This document shows positions 36,960 to 56,789 of a DNA stretch of 64,000 nucleotides, in pieces. Source of the DNA: Frondihabitans australicus (lineage in GTDB: Bacteria; Actinomycetota; Actinomycetes; Actinomycetales; Microbacteriaceae); the NCBI RefSeq assembly GCF_003634555.1, contig NZ_RBKS01000001.1, positions 2,790,001 to 2,854,000 of the forward strand, read 5' to 3'. Position numbers and translations under genes: made by a program. Below the pieces are notes generated by a model. That model did no database searches and was not told the origin of the DNA. It saw nothing but the letters and a program-made list of their open reading frames with translations. The stretch's first letter is position 1, and each line of letters begins with the position of its first letter.

Positions 36960-36967
36960 GTGAACCC

Positions 36968-38805: not shown

Positions 38806-39087
38806 TCAGCGCCCCCTGTGGTCGTCGAGGGAGACGGGGTCGTGGCCGACGAGGGAGAGCGGGCGGCTGTGCGCCTGCTCCTGCGGCTCGTCGTCGACGT
38901 AGGCGAGGGAGACGATCCGCGAGCGGTACCGGGCCACGAGGTCGATGACCTCGGCCATCGTCTCGCGGACGATGTACTTCGCGCCGTCCACCATCACGAG
39001 GGTGGTGTCGGGGGTTTCGTGAATTCGCTCGATCAAGTCGGGGTTGATCGCGAACTGACTGTCATTGAGTCGTGTGACGACGATCAT
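38806..39087 (-). CDS. flbD: FlbD family flagellar protein
   Basis: A 93-residue protein beginning MIVVTRLNDSQFAINPDLIE, a typical small FlbD of Gram-positive and spirochaete motility operons, with the conserved RIHETPDTTLVMVDG and YIVRE patches. The role is not fully known; it accompanies motA and motB in many genomes. The C-terminal 25 residues are variable. It is the first gene of the flbD-motA-motB operon, which has its own sigma-28 promoter and a leader of about 70 bases. Confidence 0.9.
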   Translation of the reverse strand: MIVVTRLNDSQFAINPDLIERIHETPDTTLVMVDGAKYIVRETMAEVIDLVARYRSRIVSLAYVDDEPQEQAHSRPLSLVGHDPVSLDDHRGR

Positions 39088-39111
39088 CGGCCCGTCCTAG
39101 GTCTGTACTTC

Positions 39112-39133
39112 CGCGGTCCATCCGTGTCCCGCG
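39112..39133 (-). promoter_or_regulatory. Candidate CsrA-binding hairpin in the flbD leader
   Basis: On the minus strand arms CGCGG and CCGCG enclose a 12-base loop with ACGGAT exactly at its centre. The same core occurs in hairpin loops before fliC and flgB. Confidence 0.5.
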
Positions 39134-39163
39134 CCGCGCGCGTCCTGCGCTGCGTACTTCCCA

Positions 39164-39190
39164 CTATCGGCCGGGGCCCGCCTGCCGTAA
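39164..39190 (-). promoter_or_regulatory. Sigma-28 (FliA) promoter of flbD-motA-motB
   Basis: Minus-strand TTAC (39187-39190), a 15-base spacer and GCCGATAG (39164-39171). The -35 differs by one base from the TAAC of the other four flagellar promoters. Confidence 0.75.
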
Positions 39191-39273
39191 GTCGTCTCCT
39201 GCCGCATTTCGCGACCGATTTCCGCTCCGCGCCCCCTGACGGCAGTCACGGGTGTGACCGGCGGCCGGATCCT

Positions 39274-39289
39274 GTCGCGAATTCGCGAC
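39274..39289. promoter_or_regulatory. Perfect 16-base palindrome
   Basis: GTCGCGAATTCGCGAC is fully self-complementary and lies upstream of the flbD promoter, beyond the HAD-gene terminator. TTTCGCGACC nearby at 39209 repeats half of it. It could be an operator; no neighbouring regulator gene was found. The remainder of 39088-39360 contains the flbD promoter and leader and no ORF. Confidence 0.4.
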
Positions 39290-39310
39290 CGGGGTGGTCA
39301 CGGGCGTGTT

Positions 39311-39332
39311 CGGGAGGAACTTCGTCCTCCCG
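39311..39332 (-). terminator. Hairpin after the HAD gene
   Basis: CGGGAGGA (39311-39318) and TCCTCCCG (39325-39332) are perfect 8-base arms with a 6-base loop, about 30 bases after the HAD stop. Confidence 0.6.
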
Positions 39333-39360
39333 ACGTGCGCTTGCCGGGCGCTCCGCCGCG

Positions 39361-40071
39361 TCAGACGGCGACCCGGCCTGGAAGATCGACGAGACTGCCG
39401 ATGCGGTGAGCGTCGGGCACGCCGACGACCGACGACGGGGCGACGAGCATGGAGGCGATGCCGGCGGCACGCGGCCCGTCGTAGTCGTTGGTCTTCGAAT
39501 CACCGACGAAGAGGCACTCCGACCGATCGACGCCCGCGGCGGCGAGGGCGGCCTCGTAGATCGCCGGGTGCGGCTTGCGCCAGCCGACGTCGAGGCTGGT
39601 GACGACCGCGTCGACGAGCCCGTCGACTCCGAGACCGCGAAGGGTGCGCTGGACGAGGTCGGACGCGTGGGTGTTCGACACGATCACGAGTCGCGCGTCG
39701 CTGCCGAGACGATCGAGGGCCTCGCCCATCCCCTCGATGGCCAGGATCCCGCGCCCCCAGTCGTCGAGGTACGCCTCGGCGCCCGCAACCGCCAGAGCCT
39801 CGGCCGGCTCGCGCCCGAGGAGCGTCCGAAACGCGACTCGCCCGACCTCGGCCATGGAATACTCGCGCATCGACACGGCGGTCTCGGCATCGAGATCGCC
39901 GAACGCGGCATCCCAGGTGGCGACGGCGGCATCGGCCGACACCTCGATGCCGTGCTCGCGGCAGAACGTCTCGGTCGTCGGCGTGGTGGTCGGCACCCGC
40001 GACGGGTCGTAGTCGACGAGGGTGCCGAAGAAATCGAGCAGGAGCACGCGAAAGCGCCCCGGCGAGGGCAT
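39361..40071 (-). CDS. HAD superfamily hydrolase
   Basis: A 236-residue HAD-type hydrolase. Motif I LLLDFFGTLVDYD is at residues 10-22 (the second acidic residue is replaced by Phe-Gly, as in haloacid dehalogenase-like members). Motif II is VIVSNTH, motif III the Lys in WRKPHPAIY, and motif IV FVGDSKTNDYDGPRAAG. A helical cap lies between motifs I and II. The substrate is unknown. Its ATG overlaps the stop of the RimB-like gene (TGATG), so the two are cotranscribed. Confidence 0.9.
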   Translation of the reverse strand: MPSPGRFRVLLLDFFGTLVDYDPSRVPTTTPTTETFCREHGIEVSADAAVATWDAAFGDLDAETAVSMREYSMAEVGRVAFRTLLGREPAEALAVAGAEAYLDDWGRGILAIEGMGEALDRLGSDARLVIVSNTHASDLVQRTLRGLGVDGLVDAVVTSLDVGWRKPHPAIYEAALAAAGVDRSECLFVGDSKTNDYDGPRAAGIASMLVAPSSVVGVPDAHRIGSLVDLPGRVAV

Positions 40072-40553
40072 CAGGCGCGACCGCGATTGCGGCGGCGGAC
40101 GTCGCGCGGTGCGCGGCCGCCCACGAACGAGCGGGCAGGATCGACGAGAAAGCCCTGCCGCAGGGCCTCGCGGCCGACCAGCATCCTGAAGCCCATCTGA
40201 TCGCGGTTGCTGAGTGTCGTCTCGGCGAGGACCGTCCGCCCGAGAAGGACGATCTCGGTCTGCACGACGAACCGCTCCTCCGTGTGACCCGACGACGAGC
40301 GGACGACTCGGCGGTCGTGGATGTCGCACTCGAGGGTGGCCTGGTCGGCGTCGGTGTCCTGCCAGGGGTGCACGGAGAACCGCACGCGGTCGCCGGGCAG
40401 CTCTTCGAGGTCGAAGGCGTGGAGGGCGCTCGACCTGGCGCCGGTGTCGAGTTTCACCTTGATCCAGCCGATGTCGATCTGGGGCAGGGCGGCCCACTCT
40501 CGCCAGCCCGCGATGAGGGGCGTGCGGCCGCTTCGGGACGGATCGTCGCTCAT
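40071..40553 (-). CDS. RimB-like / putative ATP-dependent zinc protease family protein
   Basis: A 160-residue protein with the aspartic-protease-like signature VKLDTGARSSALHAFDLEEL near residue 32 (Asp-Thr-Gly), and FRMLVGREAL near residue 123. It matches the small retropepsin-like family PF05618 often found with RimK ligases. In Pseudomonas the RimB member is reported to trim the glutamate tail that RimK adds to ribosomal protein S6. It is divergent from the RimK-type gene with only 17 bases between start codons, so a writer and eraser pair is likely. Confidence 0.8.
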   Translation of the reverse strand: MSDDPSRSGRTPLIAGWREWAALPQIDIGWIKVKLDTGARSSALHAFDLEELPGDRVRFSVHPWQDTDADQATLECDIHDRRVVRSSSGHTEERFVVQTEIVLLGRTVLAETTLSNRDQMGFRMLVGREALRQGFLVDPARSFVGGRAPRDVRRRNRGRA

Positions 40554-40570
40554 GCCCCTATCTTGGCAGG

Positions 40571-41815
40571 GTGAAACTCGCGATCCTGTCACGCGCACCG
40601 CAGGCGTACTCGACGAGGCGGCTCCGCGCCGCCGCGGTCGACAGGGGGCACGACGTCAAAGTGCTCAATACGCTGCGGTTCGCCATCGACCTGTCGGGCG
40701 AGCTGCCCGACCTCCAGTACCGAGGAAAGCTCCTCAGTGATTACGATGCGATCCTGCCCAGGATCGGCAACTCGATCACCTACTACGGCACGGCCGTGGT
40801 GCGCCAGTTCGAGCAGATGGACGTCTACACGCCGAACACGGCGAACGGCATCGTGAACTCGCGCGACAAGCTGCGGGCGAACCAGATCCTGTCGCGGCAC
40901 AACATCGGGATGCCGGCGACCGCGTTCGTCAACGGTCGGGCCGACGTGCGGATGGCGATCGAGCAGGTCGGCGGGGCTCCGGTCGTGATCAAGCTGCTCG
41001 AGGGCACGCAGGGCATCGGCGTGATCCTCGCGCCGGAGGCGAAGGTCGCCGAGTCGATCGTCGAGACCCTGCACTCGACGAAGCAGAACGTGCTGATCCA
41101 GAGCTTCATCTCGGAGTCGCGGGGCAAGGACATCCGGGCTCTCGTCGTCGGCGACAGGGTCGTCGCCGCGATGCGGCGCACCGCGTCGGGCGACGAGTTC
41201 CGGTCGAACGTGCACCGCGGCGGCACCGTCGAGAAGGTGTCGCTCTCGCCGGAGTACGAGCAGGCCGCGGTGCGGTCGGCGCAGATCATGGGGCTGCGGG
41301 TCGCCGGAGTCGACATGCTCGAGGGCAACGACGGGCCGCTCGTCATGGAGGTCAACTCCTCCCCCGGCCTCGAGGGCATCGAGCGGGCCACCGGGCTCGA
41401 CGTCGCCGGCGCGATCATCGACTACATCGCGAACCAGGTCGCGTTCCCCGAGATCGACGTGCGCCAGCGGCTGAGCGTGTCGACGGGGTACGGGGTCGCG
41501 GAGCTCCTGGTGCATGCCAATGCCGATCTCGTCGGGAAGACGATCAAGGAGACCGGGCTGTGGGACCGCGACATCACGGTGCTCACGCTGCACCGGGGCA
41601 CGACGGTGATCCCGAACCCGCGGTCGGGTGTCGCGCTGGAGCCGGGCGACCGGCTGCTGTGCTTCGGCAAGCTCGACGAGATGCGCTCGATGCTGCCGGA
41701 GAAGCGGCGCCGGCGCGCCAAGCTGCGGAAGCTGCCGGCCGAGGCGGTCGCGGAGCACTCGGAGACGGCTGCTGCTGCTGCCGCTGCCGCAGCTGCGTCC
41801 TCGTCCGACCGCTGA
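40571..41815 (+). CDS. rimK: RimK-type ATP-grasp ligase with C-terminal TrkA_C domain
   Basis: A 414-residue protein from a GTG at 40571; TATCTT ends 6 bases before it, so the mRNA may be leaderless. Residues 1-290 are RimK-like (KLAILSRAPQAYSTRRL, RGKDIRALVVGDRVVAAMRR, VAGVDMLEGNDGPLVMEVNS with SPGLEG), which adds glutamates to a protein C-terminus in the known cases. Residues about 300-380 match a TrkA_C/RCK-C ligand-binding domain (ELLVHANADLVGKTIKETGL and ALEPGDRLLCFGKLDEM). The tail has a run of about 11 alanines. The regulatory domain suggests control by a small ligand. Confidence 0.88.
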   Translation: MKLAILSRAPQAYSTRRLRAAAVDRGHDVKVLNTLRFAIDLSGELPDLQYRGKLLSDYDAILPRIGNSITYYGTAVVRQFEQMDVYTPNTANGIVNSRDKLRANQILSRHNIGMPATAFVNGRADVRMAIEQVGGAPVVIKLLEGTQGIGVILAPEAKVAESIVETLHSTKQNVLIQSFISESRGKDIRALVVGDRVVAAMRRTASGDEFRSNVHRGGTVEKVSLSPEYEQAAVRSAQIMGLRVAGVDMLEGNDGPLVMEVNSSPGLEGIERATGLDVAGAIIDYIANQVAFPEIDVRQRLSVSTGYGVAELLVHANADLVGKTIKETGLWDRDITVLTLHRGTTVIPNPRSGVALEPGDRLLCFGKLDEMRSMLPEKRRRRAKLRKLPAEAVAEHSETAAAAAAAAAASSSDR

Positions 41816-41822
41816 CGCAGAA

Positions 41823-41880
41823 AACCTCCGCCCGGCGAACGAACCGCCCCGAGGGGAGGTGCGTTCGCCGAACGGAGGTT
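41823..41880. terminator. Bidirectional terminator between rimK and flgE
   Basis: Outer arms AACCTCCG (41823-41830) and CGGAGGTT (41873-41880), inner arms GGCGAACG (41834-41841) and CGTTCGCC (41862-41869), and a further CCCC/GGGG stem at the top. It lies between the convergent rimK and flgE genes. Confidence 0.75.
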
Positions 41881-41903
41881 CGTGGCGGCGGCGGGCCGAG
41901 CGA

Positions 41904-43076
41904 CTAGCGCTTGAGGTCGATCAGCTCCTGCAGCACCGAGTCGGACGTCGTGATGATGCGGGCGTTCGCCTGGAAGCCGCGCTGGGCGACGATCAGGTTG
42001 GTGAACTCCTGCGACAGGTCGACGTTCGACATCTCGAGGGTGCCGCCGGCGAGCGAGCCGCGGCCGGGCGCGCCGGGGGTGCCGAGCGACACGGGGCCCG
42101 AGTTGCTCGAGGCGACGTAGCCGGACGACCCGACCTTCTCGAGACCGGCGGGGTTCGTGAAGGTGGCGAGGGCGATCTGGCCGAGGGCCTGCGTCTGGCC
42201 GTTCGAGAACGAGCCGATCAGCGTGCCGTCGTTCGAGATCGTGTAGCCGTTGAGCGTGCCGGCCTCGCGGCCGTCGACGTCCTGGATGGCGGCGGTGGAG
42301 AGCTGGGCGTAGCCGGTGACGCCGGAGAGGTCGGCGGTGATGCCGCCCACGGTGACCGACGAGGCCGCGGTCTGCTTGCCGTCGGTGAACGAGAGGGTCG
42401 TGGTGCCGGTGTTGCCCTGGCCGTCGTCGGCGGCGACGTCGTAGCCGGTCGCGGTCTTGGTGAAGTCGAGCGTGAAGGTGTGCTTCGTGCCCTGCTTGTC
42501 GTAGACGTCGACGTCGCGGGTGATGACGGTTCCGACAGCGGCGTCGCCGGGGAGGTTGCCGGCGACGGTCGCCTTCGAGGTGGCCTCGGCGGGCGAGGTC
42601 GCGCCGACGGGCAGCGTGATGTCGGTGAGGCCGCCGTTGCTGTTCACGGTGCCGTCGACGGCGGGGTACCCCTGGACGATCTTGCCGTCGGTGGTGGTGA
42701 GGCGTCCCTGCGAGTCGAAGTCGAAGGATCCTGCGCGGGTGTAGACGTTCTCGTTGCCCGAGCGCGTGACGAAGAAGCCGTCGCCCGAGATCATGAGGTC
42801 GGTCGCCTTGCCGGTCGACTGCGCCGAGCCCTGCGAGAAGTTCGTCGAGATGCCGGCGACCTGCACGCCGAGGCCGACCTGGGCGGGGTTCGTGCCGCCG
42901 AGGCCCTCCTGCGGGCCGCCGGCGCCGTGGGTGATCTGCGACAGGGTGTCCTCGAACACGGTCGACGACGACTTGAAGCCGACGGTGTTGACGTTGGCGA
43001 TGTTGTTGCCGGTGACGTCGAGCATGGTCTGGTGGGCGCGGAGGCCGGCGATGCCGGAGTAGAGCGAGCGGAGCAT
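41904..43076 (-). CDS. flgE: Flagellar hook protein FlgE
   Basis: A 390-residue hook protein. The N-terminal rod motif MLRSLYSGIAGLRAHQTMLD then VTGNNIANVNTVGFKSS is canonical, as is the C-terminal VDLSQEFTNLIVAQRGFQAN. Middle domain strands such as TRAGSFDFDSQGRL lie in between. No flgF or flgG follows, so it is the last gene of the flgB operon and closes with the terminator shared with rimK. Confidence 0.95.
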   Translation of the reverse strand: MLRSLYSGIAGLRAHQTMLDVTGNNIANVNTVGFKSSSTVFEDTLSQITHGAGGPQEGLGGTNPAQVGLGVQVAGISTNFSQGSAQSTGKATDLMISGDGFFVTRSGNENVYTRAGSFDFDSQGRLTTTDGKIVQGYPAVDGTVNSNGGLTDITLPVGATSPAEATSKATVAGNLPGDAAVGTVITRDVDVYDKQGTKHTFTLDFTKTATGYDVAADDGQGNTGTTTLSFTDGKQTAASSVTVGGITADLSGVTGYAQLSTAAIQDVDGREAGTLNGYTISNDGTLIGSFSNGQTQALGQIALATFTNPAGLEKVGSSGYVASSNSGPVSLGTPGAPGRGSLAGGTLEMSNVDLSQEFTNLIVAQRGFQANARIITTSDSVLQELIDLKR

Positions 43077-43132
43077 GGTGAGTGCCTTTCGGTGGAAGAA
43101 GGGTGACGTGTGTGAGGTGCTGGGGCGGCCGG

Positions 43133-43178
43133 GCGGGAGCTAGGCCGAGGTGCTGGCGGGCGCTAGGCCGAGGTGCCG
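43133..43178 (-). repeat. Tandem 23-base repeat over the flgD stop codon
   Basis: 43133-43155 and 43156-43178 match at 21 of 23 positions. Each copy contains ACCTCGGCCTAG, so the end of flgD and its stop are duplicated downstream. A recent slippage or duplication is likely. The 86-base flgD-flgE gap otherwise holds the flgE ribosome site. Confidence 0.6.
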
Positions 43179-43624
43179 GAGGTGCTGGATGACGCCGACG
43201 ACGAGTCGACGATCCCCGAGATGGAGTCGAGGGGGATGTCCTTGCCGCCGACGCTGACCGTCGGCACCGAGCCGGCGAACGAGACGGAGGCGGCGGTGCC
43301 CGAGACGTCCTTGCCGGTCGTGGAGTCGGTGTAGGTCACCTGCTTGCCGACGAGGTTCGCGGCCGAGATGCGCATCTGCAGCGAGAAGTTCTCGTTGCCG
43401 GTGGTCGTGTTGTTCGAGATGGACTCCATCATCGCCAGCTGCGTGGTCTGGCTGATCATGGCGTTGGTGTCCATCGGCGACGACGGGTCCTGGTTCTGCA
43501 GCTGGGTGACCATGAGCTGCATGAACATGTCGCTGTCCATCGTCTGTTTGGGGGCGGGGGTGGTCGCGCTGGTGGAGGCGGGCACGGTCGCTGTGACCGT
43601 GCCGGTGATTCCGTCGAGTGCCAT
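43163..43624 (-). CDS. flgD: Flagellar hook assembly protein FlgD (short form)
   Basis: A 153-residue hook cap protein. The conserved segment DSDMFMQLMVTQLQNQDPSS then PMDTNAMISQTTQLAMMESI is at residues 30-70. Only a small C-terminal beta domain follows (VGKQVTYTDSTTGKDVSGTA), so it lacks the Tudor/Fn3 extensions of enteric FlgD (about 230 residues). It scaffolds hook polymerisation. It follows fliK by 32 bases. Confidence 0.93.
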   Translation of the reverse strand: MALDGITGTVTATVPASTSATTPAPKQTMDSDMFMQLMVTQLQNQDPSSPMDTNAMISQTTQLAMMESISNNTTTGNENFSLQMRISAANLVGKQVTYTDSTTGKDVSGTAASVSFAGSVPTVSVGGKDIPLDSISGIVDSSSASSSTSGTSA

Positions 43625-43656
43625 AACAGTTCCTATCGGTCGCGGGCGGCTGCCCG

Positions 43657-45516
43657 TCAGGCCATCACGTCGATCGAGGTGGACGAGGTCGGGGTGACGC
43701 GGGTGGCGTCGGGGGCGGCAGGGCCCTCGGCGCGGCCGGCGAAGCCGTCGCGAGGGGTGTCGCCGCGGAAGCCGTGCGGGGTCGCCTGGCCCTGGGGGTT
43801 CTGGGGGGTGCCGTTCTGGCCTGCTCCTGCGCCCAGCTGGTTCTGGAGCGCCTGCTGGGCGCTGTTCTGCTGGCCCGAGCCCTGCTGGCCGCTCGGCTGG
43901 TTCTGACTCGAGACGTCGACGCTCGTCGACAGCCCCGTGCCCTGCAGGTCGCGGCGGAGGTCGGGCAGCACGGCGCGAACGGCCTCGCGGGAGGCGTCGG
44001 ACTGCGCGAAGAGCTCGACGTGCATGGTCTGGGCTCCGACGTGGGCGCGCACGGTGACCGGGCCGAGGGCCTCGGGCGAGACCTGCACGGTGATGACGTG
44101 CTCGCCGTGGCCGGCGGCGGCCAGCGTGAAGACGGGTCGCGTCAGCTGGGCGGCGAGAGGCTGCGGCTGGGGTGCGGGCGCCGCGGTCGTGGCGGCGGTG
44201 GCGCTGACGGGCGCAGGAGCAGCGGACTGCCCCGCCACCTGGGCTCCTGCCGCCGCGAAGGCCGCCGCGCTGGAGTCCGCGGCGGTCATCGCGACCTGCG
44301 TCGTGGCGCCCGTCGCGCCTGCGCCGGTGCCTCCCGCCGCACTCTGACCGTTGCCGGCCGAGGACGACGTGCTGCCGGAGTCGGCGGACCCGCCCCCGGC
44401 GCCACCGACTGCGGCGACGACGACCGGTGCCGCGTCGGTCGCGGACTGGGTGGTGACCGCAGGGGTGGCGGCCGCGACCGCCGCGCCCTTGCCTGTGCCC
44501 GCGCCCGTGTTCGGCAATTCAGGCTGCGCGTGCGCGCCGCCCGCCGACACGCCGCCGAGCCCCGGGGTCGTGCCGAGCAGAGCCTGAATTGCCGTGGGGG
44601 TCGACGCCGTGCCCGGCGTGCCGAGCCCGGCGGCCGGCGAGGCGGAACCGGCGGAACCGGCCGCGGCCGCCCCCTTCGGCAATTCAGGCTGCACGTGCGC
44701 GGCACCCGCCGACACGCCGCCGAGCCCCGGGGTCGTGCCGAGCAGAGCCTGAATTGCCGTAGAGGTGGACGCCGTGCCCGGCGTGCCGAGCCCGGCGGCC
44801 GGCGCGGCGGAGCCTGCGGGACCCGCGGAGCCGGCGGCACCGGCGGAAACCGCGGCGGCCCCCTTCGGCAATTCAGGCTGCGCGTGCGCGGCGGCCGCCG
44901 ACACGCCGGTGAGCCCGGCGGCGGCGACGAGAGGAACCTGAATTGCCGTGGCGGCGAGGCCGGCGGCGGCAGGAGCAGCCGAGGCGGCGCCGACCGAGGC
45001 AGCGGCGGCGAGCGACGCCTGCGTCGCGGGCGCCCCGGCGACGGCGTGCGGCATTTTAGGCTGCGGCTGCGCGGCGAGACCCGCGCCGAAGGCGAGGCCT
45101 GGCTGCTGGACGAGGGCGTCCTGAGTCACCGAGGACGACGCGGCCGAAGACGATGCTGCGGAGGACGACGCTGCGGAGGACGACGCGGCCGAAGCCCGGT
45201 GCCCGGCCGCTCGCGACTTCGGCTTCGCCTCGCGCGATTCCGCGACGTCACGCCGATCGCGCGAGCTGGAGCGCGTCGGACGATCGGCGGACGAGCGCGA
45301 CGGACGATCTGCCGCCGCACGATCCGCCGACGGGGCGCCCGCCGACGATGCCGGGCGGTCGAGCGTGGTGTCGCGCGGGGTCTGCACCTGCTCCTGCGCG
45401 TCCATCGCTTCACCGAACGACGCCGCCGACGCCGGCGACGAGTCGTCGTCACGGCCGGGGCGCTGCGCTTGCGAAGGCGCGAGGTCGGTGAGAGAGGTGG
45501 TGGTCACGGTGCTCAT
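43657..45516 (-). CDS. fliK: Flagellar hook-length control protein FliK with internal repeats
   Basis: A 619-residue FliK from the ATG at 45516, which overlaps the preceding stop as ATGA. Residues 1-130 are Ser/Arg/Ala-rich with four tandem ASSSA units. Residues 190-360 hold three long repeats containing AQPELPKG-type and GTPGTAST-type segments. The C-terminal conserved FliK core is about residues 470-560 (GEHVITVQVSPEALGPVTVR, then LRRDLQGTGLSTSVDV), followed by a Gln/Gly-rich tail. FliK acts as a molecular ruler and switches FlhB, so repeat number should affect hook length. Confidence 0.9.
   Translation of the reverse strand: MSTVTTTSLTDLAPSQAQRPGRDDDSSPASAASFGEAMDAQEQVQTPRDTTLDRPASSAGAPSADRAAADRPSRSSADRPTRSSSRDRRDVAESREAKPKSRAAGHRASAASSSAASSSAASSSAASSSVTQDALVQQPGLAFGAGLAAQPQPKMPHAVAGAPATQASLAAAASVGAASAAPAAAGLAATAIQVPLVAAAGLTGVSAAAAHAQPELPKGAAAVSAGAAGSAGPAGSAAPAAGLGTPGTASTSTAIQALLGTTPGLGGVSAGAAHVQPELPKGAAAAGSAGSASPAAGLGTPGTASTPTAIQALLGTTPGLGGVSAGGAHAQPELPNTGAGTGKGAAVAAATPAVTTQSATDAAPVVVAAVGGAGGGSADSGSTSSSAGNGQSAAGGTGAGATGATTQVAMTAADSSAAAFAAAGAQVAGQSAAPAPVSATAATTAAPAPQPQPLAAQLTRPVFTLAAAGHGEHVITVQVSPEALGPVTVRAHVGAQTMHVELFAQSDASREAVRAVLPDLRRDLQGTGLSTSVDVSSQNQPSGQQGSGQQNSAQQALQNQLGAGAGQNGTPQNPQGQATPHGFRGDTPRDGFAGRAEGPAAPDATRVTPTSSTSIDVMA
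44511..44930 (-). repeat. Three long in-frame repeats inside fliK
   Basis: TCGGCAATTCAGGCTGC begins at 44511, 44676 and 44865 (periods 165 and 189 bases), each followed by a GCCGACACGCC segment and, in two copies, a nearly identical stretch ending in CAGAGCCTGAATTGCCGT. The reading frame is kept. A separate 15-base repeat lies at about 45132-45191. Confidence 0.75.
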
Positions 45517-46400
45517 GCGGAGGCTCCGTTCGAGATCAGGCGCTGGAGGGCCGCCGTGAGGAGGTCGGACTGGGACGAGGTCGACGTCGAGCCGAGGCCC
45601 GAGCTGCCGAGGCCGGAGCCGGTGAGGCCGGAGAGCGCCGAGAGGAGCGACGCCGACGAGAGCGACGACGTGCCGGCGGAGCCCGCTGAGGCGCCGGAGC
45701 CGGAGCCGGTGCCCGACGGCACGATGCGGCGGATGGTGCCGATCTGCGACTCCGACAGCCACTCCTTGCGCAGCTTGACGTTCTCGCCCGGCTTCGGGGC
45801 CTCGAGGATCTGCCCGTTGCCGGCGTAGATCTGGATGTGGCCGGAGCCCTTCTCGACGATGAGGTCGCCGGGCTTCGCCTGGGCGAGCGAGGGCACCTCG
45901 ACGCCCATCTTCGCCTGGTCGGGCACGACGCGCGGCATGGTGATGCCGAGGTCTTTGAAGACGGTCTGGACGAGGCCCGAGCAGTCCATGCCCGAGGTCG
46001 TGGTGCCGCCGAAGACGTAGGGCACGCCGAGGTACTTCTTGGCGTCGGCGAGGACGTCGGCTCCGGTGACGCTCTTGTGCACGAGGCCGCCGACCGGGTT
46101 CGAGGCCGATGCCGACCCCGCCGCAGCGTCGATCGAGTCGCCCGAGCCGGTCGAACCCGTGCCCGCCAGCGCGGCCAGCTCTGCGGCCAGTGACGACGAC
46201 GACAGGGACGACGTGCCGTCGGTGCCGTCCGTGCCGTCGGACGTGCCGGCCGCGGCGAGCGCCGACGCGAAGTCGGCGGCCGTGGCGGCGTCGGAGGCGG
46301 TCGACGACGAGTCGGTCAACGACGGCAGCTGCCCGGACTGGATCTGGGCGATCGTGCTCTGGATCTCGCTGATGCGCGACATCACGTCGGAGACGCTCAC
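45513..46400 (-). CDS. NlpC/P60 cell-wall hydrolase in the flagellar operon
   Basis: A 295-residue protein from a GTG overlapping the fliJ stop (GTGA). The N-terminal third carries a helix MSRISEIQSTIAQIQSGQLP and a Ser/Ala-rich linker. The C-terminal NlpC/P60 domain is at about residues 115-230: YVFGGTTTSGMDCSGLVQ (catalytic Cys), GSGHIQIYAGNG (catalytic His) and ILEAPKPGENVKL. No signal peptide is visible, so it may be exported through the flagellar apparatus. It probably cuts peptidoglycan for rod growth, the task of FlgJ in enterics. Position between fliJ and fliK supports this. Confidence 0.85.
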   Translation of the reverse strand: MSVSDVMSRISEIQSTIAQIQSGQLPSLTDSSSTASDAATAADFASALAAAGTSDGTDGTDGTSSLSSSSLAAELAALAGTGSTGSGDSIDAAAGSASASNPVGGLVHKSVTGADVLADAKKYLGVPYVFGGTTTSGMDCSGLVQTVFKDLGITMPRVVPDQAKMGVEVPSLAQAKPGDLIVEKGSGHIQIYAGNGQILEAPKPGENVKLRKEWLSESQIGTIRRIVPSGTGSGSGASAGSAGTSSLSSASLLSALSGLTGSGLGSSGLGSTSTSSQSDLLTAALQRLISNGASA

Positions 46401-46852
46401 GAGGCACCCCCCTCGAGGGAAGGCGCAGGAGCCGACGACGGCCGCGAGTTCGCGATCTCGTCGAGGGCGATCTGCTCGACGCGCAGTTCCTCGGCGGCGG
46501 CGGCGACCCCGTGGCGCTCCTCGAGCTTCTCGAGGGCGATCGAACGGGCGCGGGCCTCGTTGTAGGCGGTCTGCGCGTCGGACGCGGCGGCCTCGTGCGC
46601 CGAGGCCATGGCGTCGAGCTCGGCGAGCATGCCGCGCGTCGAGGCGCGGGCCGCGGCGATGGCCGTGAGCGTGGCGGCGTCGGTGACGACGTCCTTCGAG
46701 CCGACGGCGGACTCCAGGATCCGCGTCGCTGCCGCACGGCGCTCGGCGACGTCGCGCACGCGCTGGTTCGCCAGCGAGAGCTCGGCCATGGCCTTCTGCT
46801 GCTGGGCGTGGCGCACGCGCAGGAGTCCGGCGAGCGAGAATGCGCGGGCCAT
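46397..46852 (-). CDS. fliJ: Flagellar export protein FliJ
   Basis: A 151-residue protein predicted to be almost entirely alpha-helical coiled coil (LLRVRHAQQQKAMAELSLAN then QRVRDVAERRAA). The start is the ATG at 46852, sharing a base with the fliI stop (TGATG). FliJ stimulates the FliI ATPase and escorts chaperones. The family is poorly conserved; the call rests on position, size and heptad pattern. Confidence 0.85.
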   Translation of the reverse strand: MARAFSLAGLLRVRHAQQQKAMAELSLANQRVRDVAERRAAATRILESAVGSKDVVTDAATLTAIAAARASTRGMLAELDAMASAHEAAASDAQTAYNEARARSIALEKLEERHGVAAAAEELRVEQIALDEIANSRPSSAPAPSLEGGAS

Positions 46853-48177
46853 CAGGCAGCACCCCCGCCCAGCGCGGCCGAGAGCGCGGCGAGCTGCTCC
46901 CACGACGCCGAGGCCGGCGTCTGGTCGTCCATCCGCTGCTGCAGGAACGCGTCGATCGCGCCCTGGTACGTGACGGCGGCGTCGACGAGGGGGTTGGTGC
47001 CGGGCTGGTACGCGCCGACGTCGATCAGATCCTGCGCCTGGCGGCGGGCGGCCATGACCGAGCGGAGGGTGCGCGCATCCTGCGACTGCGACGGGGTGAT
47101 CACCTTCGAGGCGACGCGCGAGATCGAGCCGAGCACGTCGATCGACGGGAAGTGGCCGGTGACGGCGAGCTTGCGGTCGAGCACGATGTGGCCGTCGAGG
47201 ATGGAGCGGGCGGCGTCGGCGATCGGCTCGTTGTGGTCGTCGCCGTCGACGAGCACGGTGTACAGGCCCGTGACGGAGCCGACGCGGTCGGTTCCGGCGC
47301 GCTCGAGCAGCGAGGCGAGCGTCGAGAACGTCGACGGCGGGTAGCCGCGGGTGGCGGGCGGTTCGCCGACCGAGAGGCCGATCTCGCGCTGGGCCATGGC
47401 GACGCGGGTGAGGGAGTCCATCATCAGCACCACGTCGGATCCGGCGTCGCGGAACGACTCGGCGATGCGGGTCGCGACGAACGCGGCGCGCAGCCGCATG
47501 AGGGCGGGCTCGTCGCTGGTGGCGACGACGACGATCGAGCGGGCGAGGCCCTCGGGGCCGAGGTCGTCCTCGAGGAACTCGCGCACCTCGCGGCCGCGCT
47601 CGCCGACGAGGGCGACGACGGAGACCTCGGCCTCGGTGCCGCGGGCGATCATCGACAGCAGCGACGACTTGCCGACGCCGGAGCCGGCGAAGAGACCCAT
47701 GCGCTGGCCGCGGCCGGCGGTGGTGAGGGTGTCGAGGGCGCGGACGCCGAGCTGCAGCGGCTGCGCGATGCGGGCGCGCTCCATGGAGTTCGGGGTGGGG
47801 TGGTCGATCGGCACGAGCGCGTCGGCGTGGAGCGGGCCCTTGCCGTCGATGGGGCGTCCGAGCCCGTCGAGAACGCGACCGAAGAGGGCCCGACCGGTGG
47901 GCACCAGGATCGGGCGGCCCGTCGGGCGAACCGTCATCCCGGCCCGGATCCCGGTCATCGGCCCGAGCGGCATGCAGCGCACGCCGGTCGAGTCGGCCGC
48001 GACGACCTCGGCGGTGCGGTCGATGCCGCTGCCGTCGTCGGCGCCGACCTTCACGACCTCCCCGACGGCGCAGTCGAGGCCGGCGACGGTGAGGCCGAGG
48101 CCCACGACGCTGTCGACGACGCCGACGCGCTGCGGGCGCACCGCGGCGAGCGCGGGGCTGAGATCGACGAGGGTCAC
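46852..48177 (-). CDS. fliI: Flagellum-specific ATPase FliI
   Basis: A 441-residue F1-beta-like ATPase. Walker A is GLFAGSGVGKSSLLSMIARG near residue 164, Walker B DVVLMMDSLTRVAMAQREIG near residue 250, and the conserved PPATRGYPPSTFSTLASLLE follows. It unfolds and feeds export substrates with FliH and FliJ. Its start overlaps the fliH stop by four bases. Confidence 0.97.
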   Translation of the reverse strand: MTLVDLSPALAAVRPQRVGVVDSVVGLGLTVAGLDCAVGEVVKVGADDGSGIDRTAEVVAADSTGVRCMPLGPMTGIRAGMTVRPTGRPILVPTGRALFGRVLDGLGRPIDGKGPLHADALVPIDHPTPNSMERARIAQPLQLGVRALDTLTTAGRGQRMGLFAGSGVGKSSLLSMIARGTEAEVSVVALVGERGREVREFLEDDLGPEGLARSIVVVATSDEPALMRLRAAFVATRIAESFRDAGSDVVLMMDSLTRVAMAQREIGLSVGEPPATRGYPPSTFSTLASLLERAGTDRVGSVTGLYTVLVDGDDHNEPIADAARSILDGHIVLDRKLAVTGHFPSIDVLGSISRVASKVITPSQSQDARTLRSVMAARRQAQDLIDVGAYQPGTNPLVDAAVTYQGAIDAFLQQRMDDQTPASASWEQLAALSAALGGGAA

Positions 48178-48833
48178 GCGAGACCCCCTGCGTGCGAGGC
48201 GGCGTCGGTCGCAGGAGCAGCCGACACCCCCGGCCCGAGCAGTGCGACGCGGGCGCGCTCGAGTGCCGACCCGAGTGCCGCGTCGACGAAGCCTCGCGGC
48301 AGGTCGGCCCGGGCGTCGCCGCGGCCGAGAGAGCCGTCCGCGAGAAGGGGAACTCCGAGCGATTCGCTCGCGTCCGACGGCAGCACGGAGAGGTCGTCGG
48401 GGTTGAGGCGCACGGCGACGACGTTCGCCGCCTCCGGGGTGTCGAGGGCGCGGGCGAGGGCGGCGAGCACGGTCGAGGACTGGTTCGTGCGGATCTCGTA
48501 GCCGAGGATCGCCTCGGCGAGGGCCAGGGCGGTCTCGACCAGCGTCTCCTGCACCTCGGTGCGGAGGTTCTCGCGGGCGGTGTCGAGCGCGGCGGCGGCG
48601 GTGACGAGCACCTGCGAGGCGCGGTCGGCGCGGGCGTTGGCGTGCGAGGTGACGGCGCGGGTCTCGGCCTCGAGGGATTCGCGGAGCGAGGCGGTCGACG
48701 CGGCGGCGGCGCGGAGGCCGGCCGCGTAGCCGGCGGCGTGGCCGCGCTCGGCGGCCTCCTCTTCGCGAGCCTGGGTCGCGGGGTCGCGGAGCACCGGGAA
48801 GGCGACGCGGGCGAAGGCGGGAGCGCTACTCAA
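48174..48833 (-). CDS. fliH: Flagellar assembly protein FliH
   Basis: A 219-residue protein. Residues 30-120 form a long Ala/Glu/Arg-rich coiled coil; the C-terminal domain has VETALALAEAILGYEIRTNQ and VRLNPDDLSVLPSDASE, as in FliH/YscL. The first residues VAFPVLRDP are like the FlhA-contacting tip. FliH holds FliI at the export gate. It overlaps both fliG and fliI. Confidence 0.88.
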   Translation of the reverse strand: MSSAPAFARVAFPVLRDPATQAREEEAAERGHAAGYAAGLRAAAASTASLRESLEAETRAVTSHANARADRASQVLVTAAAALDTARENLRTEVQETLVETALALAEAILGYEIRTNQSSTVLAALARALDTPEAANVVAVRLNPDDLSVLPSDASESLGVPLLADGSLGRGDARADLPRGFVDAALGSALERARVALLGPGVSAAPATDAASHAGGLA

Positions 48834-49851
48834 TGAGGGCCTCCTCGTCGCCGCGCTGCACGGTGATCGCGCCCTCGGCCGCGAGCTCGCGGATCGAGCG
48901 GACGACGCTGGCGCGGGCCTCCTCGACCTGCGACATGCGGACCGGGCCGGCGGCGCGGATCTCGTCGTCGAGCAGCTCGCGGTTGCGCTCCGACACGTTG
49001 GCGCGGATGACCTCGGTGACGGCCTCGGGCGCGCCCTTCATGGCGAGCGCGAGGACGGCCGCGTCGATGCCGCGGAGCACCTGCTGGATGTCGCGGGCGT
49101 CGAGCTTGACGATGTCGACGAAGGTGAGCATGCGCGAGCGGACCTCTTCGGCCAGCTGCGGGTCGCGGGCCTCGAGGCTCTCGAGCAGGATCCGCTCGGT
49201 CGCAGCGTCGGAGCGGTTGAGGATGTCGACGAGCGGCTGGATGCCGCCGACGGCCTCGACCTGCTCGCGCGGGGCGACGACGGCTCCGGCGCGCACCTTG
49301 AGGGTCTGCGCGACGATGCCGACGGCCTCGGGTGTCGCGGTGCCCATGGTGGCGATCGCCTGCGCGACGTCGGTGCGCTCGTCGGCGTCGAGGCCGGCGA
49401 GCACGGCCGAGGCCTGGTCGGGCGCGAGGTGGGCGAGCACGAGGGCGCGGGTCTGCGGCAGCTCTCCGTCGAGCAGCGTGAGCAGCTGCCCGGAGTCGAC
49501 GCCGTCGAGGAACTCGAACGAGCGGCCGGCCATCGACGAGGCGAGGCGCTCCATGACGCCCTGGGCCTTCTCCGAGCCGAACGACGCCTCGAGGAGGCCC
49601 ACGGCGAAGTCGCGGCCGCCGCGGCGGGTGACGCGGCCCTGGACGGTGAGGTCGTGGAACTCCGACACCGCGGTGTCGGCGGTCGTCGAGTCGACGCGGC
49701 GCATCTTCACGAGCTCGGCCGTGATCTCGTCGGCCTCCTGCTCGCTGAACTTCTGCATGACGGCGGCGGCGCGCGCCTGGTCCATCTGCATGAGGATCAC
49801 GGCGACCTTCTGGGCGCCGGTCAGCTCGGCCTGGGCGGCTGCGGGGCTCAT
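48826..49851 (-). CDS. fliG: Flagellar motor switch protein FliG
   Basis: A 341-residue FliG with N-terminal (GAQKVAVILMQMDQARAAAV), middle (ALVLAHLAPDQASAVLAGLD) and C-terminal torque domain (LALAMKGAPEAVTEVIRANV then SERNRELLDDEIRAAGPVR) in order. The charged torque-helix residues that meet MotA are kept. The start overlaps the fliF stop. Confidence 0.96.
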   Translation of the reverse strand: MSPAAAQAELTGAQKVAVILMQMDQARAAAVMQKFSEQEADEITAELVKMRRVDSTTADTAVSEFHDLTVQGRVTRRGGRDFAVGLLEASFGSEKAQGVMERLASSMAGRSFEFLDGVDSGQLLTLLDGELPQTRALVLAHLAPDQASAVLAGLDADERTDVAQAIATMGTATPEAVGIVAQTLKVRAGAVVAPREQVEAVGGIQPLVDILNRSDAATERILLESLEARDPQLAEEVRSRMLTFVDIVKLDARDIQQVLRGIDAAVLALAMKGAPEAVTEVIRANVSERNRELLDDEIRAAGPVRMSQVEEARASVVRSIRELAAEGAITVQRGDEEALIE

Positions 49852-51536
49852 ACGGTCTGCCGATCATCGAGCAGGCCGCGCAGGAGCTCGGCGGTGCGGT
49901 CGGGGTCGCCGGCGGCGAGTGCGTCGATCTCGGCGCGCTTGCGCTCGATCGAGGCTCCCTCCGCGTCGAGCGACGGAAGCTGCACGGTCGGCGCCGTCGG
50001 CGTCGGGCCGCCGGCCTCGAGGAGGCGGCGGGCGGCCGCGTCGTCGAGGGCGGGCTGCGCGGCGGCCGGCCAGGTGCCGGCCTGCGCCGAGGCGCCGGCC
50101 GAGGTGGCGTCGAGCTCGCCGAGGTCGATCTCCTCGCGCTCGGTCCGGCGACCGCGGCGGGTGAGCATGAACAGGGCCAGGATCAGCGGAACGCCGATCG
50201 CGGCGGCGATGAGGCCGGTGCGGATCGTCTGCCACATCGAGTCGCTGGCGGCCTGGGCGTTCGCGGCGGCGAGCGCCTGCTGAGCCGCCTTGGCTCCTGC
50301 GCCGTTGAAGCTCACGGCCTGCACGCTGAGCGAGTCGCCGCGGGTGGGGTCGATGCCGGCCGCCTTGGCGACGAGGTCCTGGATGTTGCCCATGTTGACG
50401 TTCTTCGCGACCTTCGAGTTGATCGCGACCGAGACCGTCTGCTTGGTCAGCGTGCCGGCGGGGATCGTGGTCGATTCGGTGGTCTTGTCGACGGCGTTGT
50501 TCTTCGTCGAGGACTCGTTCACGTAGCCGGATCCGGAGCCCGTGGCGGAGGCGCCCGACGTCGCGGAGCCCGAGGGGACGGCGATGTTGTCGGGGCCGAG
50601 GACACCGGTGGCGCCCGAGCTCGACGATCCTGCGCCCGACCCGCCGTACGACTCGGTCGACGACGACTCGGAGAGCGGCGACGCGCCGCCGGTCGGGTTG
50701 GTGTACGACTCGGTGACCTTCGTGCCGGAGTCCTGGCTCATGTCCGCGGCGACCACGACCGTCGAGTTGCCGGCGCCGAGCACCTTGTCGAGCATGGCCT
50801 GGACGTTCGCCTGCACCTGAGACTGGTACGCCGACTGCTGCTGCGACGACGACCCGGTGGTGCCGCCTCCCACGGTGGAGAGGACGTTGCCCTGGGCGTC
50901 GACGACCGACACGTCGGTGGCCTTCATGCCCTCGATCGACGCCGAGGTGAGGTGGACGATCGCCTCGACCTGCGACGAGGTCAGCGTGACGCCCGGCATC
51001 TCGGCGACGAACACCGACGCGGTGGGGTCCTGCTTGCTGTCGGTGAAGACGGTCTGCTGCGGGATCGCGAGCTGGACGCTCGCGGTCTTCACGCCCTGCA
51101 TGGCCTCGATGGTCTTGGCGAGCTCGCCCTCGATGGCGCGCTTGTAGGTGACGTTCTGCGTGAACTCCGACGCGGTGACGCCCATCTGGTCGAGAAGCGC
51201 GTAGCCCTGCGTGTTGTCGGCGGGGAGGCCGGCCGCGGCGACCTTGAGGCGCTCGGAGTAGACGTCGGCGTTCGGCACGAGGATCGTCGAGCCGCCGTCG
51301 GAGAGCTGGTACTGAACGCCGTCGGTCTGCAGCTGCTGCACCACCGCCGAGGCGTCGGTGGCGGCGAGACCCGTGAACAGCGGGGTGTACGTGGGCTTCG
51401 TCAGGTACGACGTGACGAAGACGCCACCGAGCACCAGGATCGCGACACCGAGCACGGCCAGCACGCGCTGGCCGATGGTGAACGCCTTGACCCGGTCGCC
51501 GAGCGACGTGAGAAGGGAGCGAAGGGCGGGAGGCAT
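49848..51536 (-). CDS. fliF: Flagellar MS-ring protein FliF
   Basis: A 562-residue protein with two membrane helices (about 25-45 and 430-450), the first ring-building motif (YTPLFTGLAATDASAVVQQL) and TYKRAIEGELAKTIEAMQGV. A Ser/Gly-rich periplasmic segment occupies about residues 290-360. The C-terminal cytoplasmic tail carries the FliG-binding end (TAELLRGLLDDRQTV). It is the base on which the rod and C-ring assemble. Confidence 0.96.
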   Translation of the reverse strand: MPPALRSLLTSLGDRVKAFTIGQRVLAVLGVAILVLGGVFVTSYLTKPTYTPLFTGLAATDASAVVQQLQTDGVQYQLSDGGSTILVPNADVYSERLKVAAAGLPADNTQGYALLDQMGVTASEFTQNVTYKRAIEGELAKTIEAMQGVKTASVQLAIPQQTVFTDSKQDPTASVFVAEMPGVTLTSSQVEAIVHLTSASIEGMKATDVSVVDAQGNVLSTVGGGTTGSSSQQQSAYQSQVQANVQAMLDKVLGAGNSTVVVAADMSQDSGTKVTESYTNPTGGASPLSESSSTESYGGSGAGSSSSGATGVLGPDNIAVPSGSATSGASATGSGSGYVNESSTKNNAVDKTTESTTIPAGTLTKQTVSVAINSKVAKNVNMGNIQDLVAKAAGIDPTRGDSLSVQAVSFNGAGAKAAQQALAAANAQAASDSMWQTIRTGLIAAAIGVPLILALFMLTRRGRRTEREEIDLGELDATSAGASAQAGTWPAAAQPALDDAAARRLLEAGGPTPTAPTVQLPSLDAEGASIERKRAEIDALAAGDPDRTAELLRGLLDDRQTV

Positions 51537-51883
51537 CAGGCCTGCATCCTCATGATCTCGTTGAAGGCGTCGACGGCCTTCGAGCGGACGGCGGAGACGA
51601 GCTCGAGGGTGACCTGAGCGCGGGTGGCGGCGATGGTGGCGGTGTGGACGTCGTCGGCATTGCCGGTGACGGCCTTGACCGCGAGGCTCTCGGACTGGCC
51701 CTGAAGGGACTGCAGTCCGTCGATCACGCTGCCGAAGCTGGAGGCGGAGGCGGTGTCGCCGGTGCCCTGGGTGGCGTCGAGGCCGTTCGCGGCCGAGGCC
51801 GCCTGGTTGGCGTCGATCTGCGAGGCGCTGGTCAGCGCCGTGGAGCCGGTGGGGAAGGCGCCGTTCACGGGGTAGATGGGCAT
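51536..51883 (-). CDS. fliE: Flagellar hook-basal body protein FliE
   Basis: A 115-residue protein ending VTLELVSAVRSKAVDAFNEI and then MRMQA, the FliE signature. The start is the ATG at 51883, overlapping the flgC stop (TGATG). It joins the MS ring to the rod and is an early export substrate. Confidence 0.92.
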   Translation of the reverse strand: MPIYPVNGAFPTGSTALTSASQIDANQAASAANGLDATQGTGDTASASSFGSVIDGLQSLQGQSESLAVKAVTGNADDVHTATIAATRAQVTLELVSAVRSKAVDAFNEIMRMQA

Positions 51884-52278
51884 CAGCTGCGTCCGATCTC
51901 GAGGCCGGCCTGGTACATGTCCTTGGCGCGGTCGACGACGGCGGCGTTGGCCTGGTACCCGCGCTGGGCCATGATCAGGTCGCTCATCTGGGTGGAGAGG
52001 TCGATGTCCGGCATGCGGACGTAGCCGTTCTTGTCGGCCTCGGGGTTCTCGGGGTCGTAGGTGACGCGGCCCTGGGCGGAGCCGTAGGTGGCGCCCTTGA
52101 CGTACACGCCGGAGACCCCCTGCCCCTCCTGCACCTCGATGTAGCGGGCCTGGAAGGCCGACTCCGACATCGGCTTGACCGTGTTGACGTTGGCGATGTT
52201 GTCGGAGATGGCGTCGAGCCACTTGCGGTGCACGGTGAGGCCGGTGCTCGCGATCCCGATCGCGTCGAACATTCCCAT
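51883..52278 (-). CDS. flgC: Flagellar proximal rod protein FlgC
   Basis: A 131-residue rod protein with N-terminal MGMFDAIGIASTGLTVHRKW, LDAISDNIANVNTVK and C-terminal MSDLIMAQRGYQANAAVVDR. The ATG at 52278 shares the flgB stop and has AAGGA upstream. The sequence is intact. Confidence 0.96.
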   Translation of the reverse strand: MGMFDAIGIASTGLTVHRKWLDAISDNIANVNTVKPMSESAFQARYIEVQEGQGVSGVYVKGATYGSAQGRVTYDPENPEADKNGYVRMPDIDLSTQMSDLIMAQRGYQANAAVVDRAKDMYQAGLEIGRS

Positions 52279-52619
52279 CAGGCGTCCTTCAGAACGGCGC
52301 GGACGCTGGTGAGAACCTGGTTCTCGGCCTGCGACGCGAACTGGTACTGCAGCACGGTCGTGCTGTTGCTCAGGGTCTCGGTGTCGAGGTTGACGTTGTT
52401 GCCGTCCTCGTTGGTGGGCTCCAGGCTCCTGGCCATGGTCGCCTGCACGGAGCCGTTGCCGTTCGCGACCGACTGCGCGAGGGCGTCCTCGAACGACACG
52501 CGCTCGGCGGTGTAGCCGGGGGTGTTGATGTTCGCGATGTTGTTCGCGATGGCCTTCTGGCGCATCGAGAGACCGTCGAGGGCGCTCTCGAGCGCTCTCG
52601 AGGTTACGGATTCCAGCAC
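52278..52619 (-). CDS. flgB: Flagellar proximal rod protein FlgB
   Basis: A 113-residue rod protein from a GTG at 52619, where the sequence begins as in other FlgB proteins (LESVTSRALESALDGLSMRQ, KAIANNIANINTPGYTAERV). A TTG at 52655 would add 12 residues and cannot be excluded. It is the first gene of a twelve-gene operon, downstream of a sigma-28 promoter and two hairpins that may bind CsrA. Confidence 0.93.
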   Translation of the reverse strand: MLESVTSRALESALDGLSMRQKAIANNIANINTPGYTAERVSFEDALAQSVANGNGSVQATMARSLEPTNEDGNNVNLDTETLSNSTTVLQYQFASQAENQVLTSVRAVLKDA

Positions 52620-52666
52620 GGACGGCTCGCTTCCCCGCGCGATCGCGCGGTGCAAGAGGGGGAGGC

Positions 52667-52681
52667 GGCCGATCCGTGGCC
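52667..52681 (-). promoter_or_regulatory. Candidate CsrA hairpin 2 in the flgB leader
   Basis: Minus-strand GGCCACGGATCGGCC: a 4-base stem with ACGGATC in the loop, about 48 bases before the GTG start of flgB. Confidence 0.5.
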
Positions 52682-52688
52682 TGACGTG

Positions 52689-52707
52689 GTGAGCGATCCG
52701 TGCTCAC
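52689..52707 (-). promoter_or_regulatory. Candidate CsrA hairpin 1 in the flgB leader
   Basis: Minus-strand GTGAGCACGGATCGCTCAC: a 6-base perfect stem with the same ACGGATC loop as the neighbouring hairpin. It would lie at the very 5' end of the transcript. Confidence 0.55.
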
Positions 52708-52713
52708 TACGCT

Positions 52714-52740
52714 CTATCGGCCCGGGGCAGGGCGACGTTA
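52714..52740 (-). promoter_or_regulatory. Sigma-28 (FliA) promoter of the flgB operon
   Basis: Minus-strand TAAC (52737-52740), a 15-base spacer and GCCGATAG (52714-52721). The box and spacing are identical to those of fliC and flgN. Confidence 0.85.
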
Positions 52741-56694: not shown

Positions 56695-56705
56695 GATGAA
56701 ACTCT

Positions 56706-56750
56706 CTTCCGTGATTTATATGGGGGTGGTGCTGCCGCCCATCCGTGGGC
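56706..56750 (-). promoter_or_regulatory. Candidate CsrA sites in the fliC leader
   Basis: Site 1 (56737-56750): minus-strand GCCCACGGATGGGC, a 5-base stem with CGGA as loop. Site 2 (56706-56712): ACGGAAG, whose GGAAG is part of the ribosome site of fliC. The spacing is like the two CsrA sites on Bacillus hag mRNA. Confidence 0.65.
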
Positions 56751-56762
56751 TGACACTGAGAG

Positions 56763-56789
56763 CTATCGGCTGCTGCGTCGCAGGCGTTA
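56763..56789 (-). promoter_or_regulatory. Sigma-28 (FliA) promoter of fliC
   Basis: Minus-strand TAAC (56786-56789), a 15-base spacer and GCCGATAG (56763-56770), about 69 bases before the start codon. Confidence 0.9.

Follow-up and report, generated by a model that had tools for sequence, protein, structure and literature searches.

What do short hairpins with one and the same loop word, ACGGAT, do at the head of several flagellar operons of Frondihabitans australicus, and which factor reads them? The question is raised by a 64,000-nucleotide stretch of DNA (the window), which covers positions 2,790,001-2,854,000 of the 4.04 Mb genome of this member of the family Microbacteriaceae; order, class and phylum refer to the Actinomycetales, Actinomycetes and Actinomycetota of its GTDB lineage. 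The window contains a flagellar gene cluster with csrA at one end and fliW at the other (Table 1). An initial annotation had described two ACGGAT hairpins before flgB, at the head of the rod operon, and one before flbD, and had proposed that CsrA might thereby govern the rod and motor operons beyond flagellin. Here we describe a pair of conserved hairpins that heads the rod operon and is very probably read by CsrA.

Tandem GGA-loop hairpins in flgB leaders

Both flgB hairpins are kept in all seven Frondihabitans genomes compared (the window and six congeners), with hairpin 1 only 4 bp long in one of them, and they persist while the linker and the remaining leader sequence diverge. Of 199 family genomes, 61 yielded FlgB. 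With the congeners included and duplicates taken out, dropping non-FlgB matches and matches with E > 1e-10 reduced 68 leaders to 62 distinct ones. All 62 contain at least one hairpin with an A-N-GGA loop (shuffles: mean 3.1, maximum 7), 58 contain two by a coarse strict count, and tandem GGA-loop hairpins spaced by 18-28 nt occur in 60 (shuffles: mean 1.06, maximum 5). In the order, 90 of 297 genomes yielded FlgB, and 82 of the 90 belong to other families. Of these 82 leaders, 57 from 14 families were compared, and 53 have the tandem pair (shuffles: mean 1.83, maximum 5), including L290, which is positive through a different hairpin pair; the leaders without it are L270, L295, L311 and L319. 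Conservation in relatives, which the initial annotation had named as a check on its hairpins, is thus found for flgB in the genus, the family, other families of the order and, as described below, further families of the class.

GGA was the best of all 64 loop trinucleotides in both the family and the other-family leaders. The base between A and GGA is C, U, G or A, and GGA itself is constant between relatives; among the hairpins of the 62 family leaders ACGGA was counted in 49, AUGGA in 20, AGGGA in 11 and AAGGA in 2 (the counts overlap). The position of the element is similarly regular. The two loops are 22-24 nt apart in 51 of the 62 family leaders, where a -10 box was recognised (56 leaders) the loop of hairpin 1 lies 13-16 nt past it in 53, the start site itself being a prediction, and loop 2 lies 34-66 nt upstream of the start codon across the family. 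A few misparsed rows (such as L103, L233, L243 and L244) are included in the counts of box distance, spacing and ribosome-site GGA.

Paired changes in the stems were counted in two alignments. Alignment A2 comprises 82 of 113 distinct flgB elements, after removal of close relatives and of four rows in which another pair had been picked (L100, L101, L229 and L290, which still count as positives for tandem hairpins via that other pair). Alignment A3 was fitted to the covariance model described below (99 sources; L295, L318 and L328, three without a match, are not in it). In A2, both sides of a pair are changed in 40 cells, compared to 19.2 in shuffles (0 of 500 reach it), and 83.5% of the cells are paired, compared to 28-42% when the alignment is slid. 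In A3, the corresponding values are 20 cells versus 2.2 in shuffles and 97.7% paired. On most measures, changes in the stems are thus paired beyond shuffle levels; the covariation is modest, as two of the five A2 measures are weak and A3 is fitted to the model. The commonest arms of the family, GAGC/GCUC and GGCC/GGCC, are nearly invariant; in some lineages (e.g., L310, L312, L317, L318, L320 and L328) the stems are quite different but the core is retained. Such nearly invariant arms, together with the constant distance to the -10 box, would also suit palindromic DNA operators for a transcription factor acting just past the promoter, and the available part of a study on Actinosynnema describes PhoP as acting on a flgB promoter, though from a box some 140 bp ahead of the start (PMC9019756). 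However, the GGA core is one-sided, being confined to the transcribed strand, and is retained where the arms change, and the same loop is found in the flagellin and flbD leaders with unrelated arms; we consider DNA operators highly unlikely.

A covariance model, R1, was built from the same 82 of the 113 distinct elements. Searched over 46 loci (859 kb) at E < 0.05, it gave 47 matches, namely the flgB leader in 46 of 46 and one extra copy in L226. The latter (L226:12335-12483, +) is a second tandem element, which brings along a sigma-28-like GCCGATA box. Placed between fliI and a fliJ-like frame, it forms a promoter-plus-leader cassette repeated within the flagellar operon. A search of 394 genomes of the class at E up to 0.01 gave 42 matches, spread over 37 genomes, and the single match at this threshold in the F. 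australicus genome is the flgB leader; the search was run under strict filters, under which misses carry little information. Among the 24 matches with E up to 7.2e-4, 22 are located before flgB (one via L326), and the remaining 2 occupy other places within a single genome's flagellar cluster. Of the 18 weaker ones, 3 precede flgB and 15 have none of the 18 tested flagellar proteins nearby, a query set in which the sequence labelled FliM is a wrongly started FliN frame. The matches before flgB extend to further families of the class. In G453, the genome with two extra element matches (L360, ~1180-1221, -; L361, ~934-976, -), these are located between fliO and fliP and between fliG and fliI. Beyond the class, the sole further match among 198 genomes of the phylum was near none of the 18 proteins and was taken as chance. 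Rfam contained no family matching the element; only a 7-bit match to a human long non-coding RNA model (cut-off 70 bits) was returned.

The ACGGAT leaders of the window

Five GCCGATA boxes are present in the window, before flagellin, flgB, flbD, flgN and fliM. Because this number was matched or exceeded in 17 of 100 shuffles of the window, the boxes are called sigma-28-like promoters by their position and by a -35-like sequence read by eye. The word ACGGAT occurs 13 times in the window and is rarer than shuffles predict (mean 32). Four of the 13 copies fall within the five short flagellar leaders (330 nt), where 0.03 would be expected at the window rate (Poisson P ~5e-8, for leaders picked after the fact). 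They are located in the flagellin, flgB (two) and flbD leaders; the flgN leader and the nearly leaderless fliM operon have none. Across the genome, GCCGATA followed by ACGGAT within 8-38 nt was matched five times, twice in the flgB leader, once in the flagellin leader and twice elsewhere; the flbD spacing exceeds this range. The initial annotation is therefore accurate in the positions and sequences of its three hairpins, in placing each of them between a sigma-28-like promoter and the first gene, and in its view that four copies in three of five leaders are far above chance. It missed a second flbD hairpin and the GGA at the Shine-Dalgarno sequences of flagellin and flbD.

Table 1. Features of the flagellar cluster discussed in the text (positions within the window).
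Feature	Position	Strand	Remark
csrA, presumed reader of the sites	27996..28265	-	PF02599; alignment to PDB 2jpp; Leu4 and Arg44 kept
fliW, presumed CsrA antagonist	60939..61388	+	PF02623
flgB	52278..52619	-	GTG start at 52619, inferred from conservation in relatives
flbD	38806..39087	-	Pfam PF06289
Flagellin gene	55507..56694	-	Pfam PF00669/PF00700
fliM	36039..36959	-	GCCGATA box directly upstream
Sigma-28-like -10 box GCCGATA of the flgB operon	52715..52721	-	-35-like CTAACGTC read by eye
flgB hairpin 1, GTGAGC-ACGGATC-GCTCAC	52689..52707	-	at or near the inferred mRNA 5' end
flgB hairpin 2, GGCC-ACGGATC-GGCC	52667..52681	-	loop-to-loop distance from hairpin 1, 24 nt
Sigma-28-like -10 box GCCGATA upstream of flbD	39165..39171	-	
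flbD hairpin a, GCGC-AGGA-CGCGC	39138..39150	-	absent from the initial annotation
flbD hairpin b, CGCGG-GA-C-ACGGAT-G-GA-CCGCG (CGCGG-GACACGGATGGA-CCGCG)	39112..39133	-	
AGGA in the flbD Shine-Dalgarno region (AGGACGG), candidate third site	39095..39098	-	
Sigma-28-like -10 box GCCGATA of flagellin	56764..56770	-	
Flagellin leader hairpin, GCCC-ACGGAT-GGGC	56737..56750	-	ACGGAT at 56741-56746
ACGGAAGAG at the flagellin Shine-Dalgarno sequence, GGA-bearing candidate second site	56704..56712	-	

Leaders of the flagellar genes were compared by the presence of a GGA hairpin with a folding energy of -5 kcal/mol or lower. Such hairpins occur in 98% of 62 flgB, 98% of 65 fliC and 69% of 70 flbD leaders, at shuffle rates of 25%, 26% and 47%, respectively; the flbD sample was drawn from 133 leaders which include Arthrobacter, a member of another family. 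No clear excess over shuffles was seen in the flgN, motA, fliF, flgE, fliA, csrA and flgC leaders (the fliM row was left out, flhA was not usable and fliG had only 6 leaders). The flgN leader forms a strong hairpin whose loop lacks GGA (GAGAGCG-CAAC-CGCTCTC, 58030-58047, +), and the fliM start lies about 9 nt past its GCCGATA box (36957-36975, -), so the fliM mRNA may be nearly leaderless.

The genes also differ at the ribosome site, where GGA is found in 65 of 65 flagellin, 124 of 133 flbD and 33 of 62 flgB leaders, figures which contrast the genes with one another and do not include a general background rate of GGA. In 64 of the 65 flagellin leaders it is part of A-N-GGA, which gives flagellin a candidate second site of the hag type. 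The 29 family flgB leaders without GGA at -20 to -4, which include those of 5 of the 7 Frondihabitans genomes, lack such a site. The predicted flgB element is thus of another build, with paired hairpins near the 5' end instead of a hairpin plus a Shine-Dalgarno site. In one genome (G196:C29:159068-163406), four tandem flagellin genes have equally matching starts, each with a GGA hairpin and a GGA-containing ribosome site upstream.

For flbD, all seven Frondihabitans genomes retain two GGA hairpins in the leader together with a GGA close to the start, and paired stem changes are seen by eye. The three GGA cores are invariant in 23 chosen, aligning leaders from Frondihabitans, Frigoribacterium, Curtobacterium and one further relative. 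Beyond these, conservation is patchy: a strict A-N-GGA hairpin test is passed by 58 of 133 leaders, and by eye the hairpins of Arthrobacter and most Cryobacterium leaders are missing or replaced by another hairpin without GGA. Cryobacterium leaders (L063, L068, L074 and L082), for example, retain a different hairpin such as GACGGTTACTTGAACCGTC. The proposed extension of CsrA control to rod and motor operons is hence supported for flgB, with its widely conserved hairpins, its A-N-GGA core and csrA and fliW in the same cluster; for flbD it is weaker and would hold for part of the family only, with the sites kept in the genus and two neighbouring genera.

CsrA as predicted reader and the presumed sign of its effect

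That CsrA reads the flgB element is very probable, because A-N-GGA is conserved while the second loop base and some stem pairs change, as the recognition rule of CsrA predicts. The CsrA encoded in the window aligns over its RNA-binding core with the RsmE chain of PDB 2jpp, and Leu4 and Arg44, which we take to be key RNA-binding residues of CsrA, are conserved. The RNA partner of RsmE in this structure carries an ACGGAU loop. csrA, flbD and flagellin were each found in the same 62 of 199 family genomes, with flgB in 61 of these 62. In the order, csrA was detected in 87 and FlgB in 90 of 297 genomes; the two sets differ by four FlgB-only genomes, all fragmented assemblies (570-1060 contigs), and one csrA-only genome.

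The best explanation overall, which we hold at even chances, is a two-hairpin CsrA-binding element at the 5' end of the flgB operon leader that raises expression of the rod operon. The first hairpin would probably begin the transcript, given the predicted transcription start, and one CsrA dimer would bridge both A-N-GGA loops. Bound CsrA would then increase expression of the rod operon, either because it shields the 5' end of the mRNA or because it holds the leader open. The positive sign is a best guess from position alone and could go either way; activation is suggested because loop 2 is distant from the start codon, the element is located at the expected transcription start and about half of the ribosome sites are without GGA.

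Folding was predicted for 111 flgB leaders, with L264, L077, L098, L229, L100, L101, L290, L302 and leaders without a pair left out. When the element is folded alone, hairpin 1 forms in 97% and hairpin 2 in 96% of them (P above 0.5). The two hairpins of the window also form when the 5' segment is folded alone, and their place at the inferred 5' end would allow them to stabilise the mRNA by structure only, without CsrA. This would give no account of the GGA loops in 53 of 57 other-family leaders or of the same core in flagellin and flbD leaders, and stabilisation by structure only is remoter still than a DNA operator. In the minimum-energy fold of the full-length flgB leader of the window, hairpin 1 is kept and the region of hairpin 2 is paired with the ribosome-binding region.

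A switch at the ribosome site was considered as a candidate and rejected. With both hairpins forced, the predicted accessibility of the site rose in 51 of 111 leaders, fell in 23 and did not change in 37 (Wilcoxon P = 3e-4), and leaders with shuffled downstream sequence behaved similarly (P = 0.45). Pairing of the loops with the coding region was dropped as well. In 42 of 62 family leaders, UCCGU, which is complementary to the ACGGA loops, was found within the first 24 nt of flgB; the start of the gene (52599-52619, -, and relatives) frequently reads GA(A/U)UCCGU. Of 68 serines at codon 4, 46 are encoded by UCC, a clear excess over all serine codons near other flagellar starts (Fisher P = 3e-7). 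This was judged too weak, as with UCN codons only it amounts to 46 of 67 versus 137 of 251 and the sequences are related. Just upstream of the flgB ribosome site lies the palindrome CGCGCGATCGCGCG (52636-52649), which was not seen in the leaders of the six congeners; one of them (L008) has another short hairpin in its place.

Several observations weigh against a CsrA-bound activating element. In A2, the number of pairs changed on both sides (5 versus 3.4; reached by 34 of 500 shuffles) and of further pair types (17 versus 15.1; 50 of 500) hardly exceeds that in shuffles, and RNAalifold gave no prediction of the flgB hairpins on this alignment, which we attribute to rows in shifted register. 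In the full leaders (n = 111), the median predicted probability is 0.28 for hairpin 1 and 0.015 for hairpin 2, and competition from the real downstream sequence amounts to 6.3 kcal/mol, compared to 5.0 for shuffled sequence. A translational switch is not supported, because the shuffled controls free the ribosome site equally. The order offers no clean flagellated genome without csrA as a negative control for presence and absence, since the four FlgB-only genomes are fragmented assemblies. In the pull-down of Campylobacter jejuni CsrA, flgB is enriched at most 1.6-fold in the data available from that study (PMC4894983), and the open-licence literature yielded neither CsrA binding data nor a tested CsrA target for any actinobacterium.

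CsrA might also bind the element and repress the operon, either because the dimer reaches the ribosome site or because decay is promoted. Repression is the commonest CsrA mode according to the accessible part of a review (PMC7652899), GGA lies in the ribosome-site region of 33 of 62 family leaders, and hairpin 2 of the window competes with pairing over this region. Against this stand the leaders without ribosome-site GGA and the distance of loop 2 from the start codon, and we rate repression as possible but doubtful. The least probable explanation, to which we give very little credit, is that the flgB leader titrates CsrA as a sponge without being regulated itself. Two sites lie side by side, and C. 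jejuni flaA mRNA is described as titrating CsrA in the available text (PMC4894983), but flgB mRNA is unlikely to be more abundant than the mRNA of flagellin, which bears sites of its own.

If CsrA does activate the rod operon, flagellin and, in some genera, flbD would respond in the opposite sense, since a Shine-Dalgarno GGA alongside a hairpin is the arrangement of CsrA repression. FliW-free CsrA would thus favour rod and hook assembly and hold back the filament, and the motor too where flbD has sites. In a more far-reaching proposal, which we regard as rather unlikely as it stands, CsrA-FliW would form a two-way post-transcriptional checkpoint in flagellated actinobacteria and replace the FlgM/sigma-28 checkpoint. 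As long as the hook is unfinished, free CsrA would stabilise the rod operon mRNA and silence flagellin (and the flbD-motAB operon in some genera); once flagellin is exported, FliW would capture CsrA and both effects would be reversed. In F. australicus, assembly order would have to be set on RNA, because the five recognised promoters are all sigma-28-like and no FlgM was found with PF04316 in this one genome, FlgM being small and divergent.

These results place a well-defined RNA element, open to direct tests, at the start of the rod operon in many flagellated actinobacteria. They widen the predicted actinobacterial CsrA regulon from the filament to the flagellar base and offer a way to explain ordered assembly where the recognised promoters look alike. 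If true, CsrA would also take part in timing the assembly of this base.

Comparison with known CsrA systems

One close counterpart is RsmE with the hcnA site of Pseudomonas; the window CsrA aligns with the RsmE chain of PDB 2jpp. The hcnA site reportedly shares the ACGGAU hexaloop and differs in overlapping its Shine-Dalgarno sequence. A broader flagellar role of CsrA is described for C. jejuni, where, in the available part of the study, the protein binds several flagellar leaders besides flagellin, the A-N-GGA motif is found in 324 of 328 pull-down targets, and the flaA leader has two A-N-GGA stem-loops with compensatory changes (PMC4894983).

For actinobacteria, a 2008 study proposed on the basis of a BS2-like match that CsrA controls Kineococcus flagellin, and it recorded csrA next to flagellar genes of other members of the group; this proposal concerns flagellin only, and hairpins or the flgB leader are not mentioned in the accessible text (PMC2587704). 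In the main text of a 2023 survey of actinobacterial flagella, as far as available, CsrA and FliW appear once each, in a protein list (PMC10746217). The open-licence literature yielded nothing on CsrA sites in the flgB leaders of actinobacteria. The tie of CsrA to the filament gene in actinobacteria has so far been a prediction only, and the flgB element suggests an addition to it.

In the CsrA-FliW system of Bacillus subtilis, hag is repressed by CsrA through a Shine-Dalgarno site, as stated in the available part of the review (PMC7652899). The F. australicus cluster is similar in having both csrA and fliW and a flagellin leader with a hairpin site plus a Shine-Dalgarno site; it differs in the flgB leaders, since ribosome-site GGA is absent from 29 of 62 family sequences. 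In Escherichia coli, two CsrA sites near the 5' end of the flhDC mRNA protect it from RNase E, according to the same partial source (PMC7652899). The likeness would lie in a flagellar operon mRNA with a pair of sites near its 5' end, both the sites and the 5' end being predictions in the case of flgB. The difference is that flhDC encodes a transcription activator, whereas the target here would be the structural rod operon itself. By analogy, the flgB arrangement resembles the CsrA protection of flhDC more than repression of the hag type.

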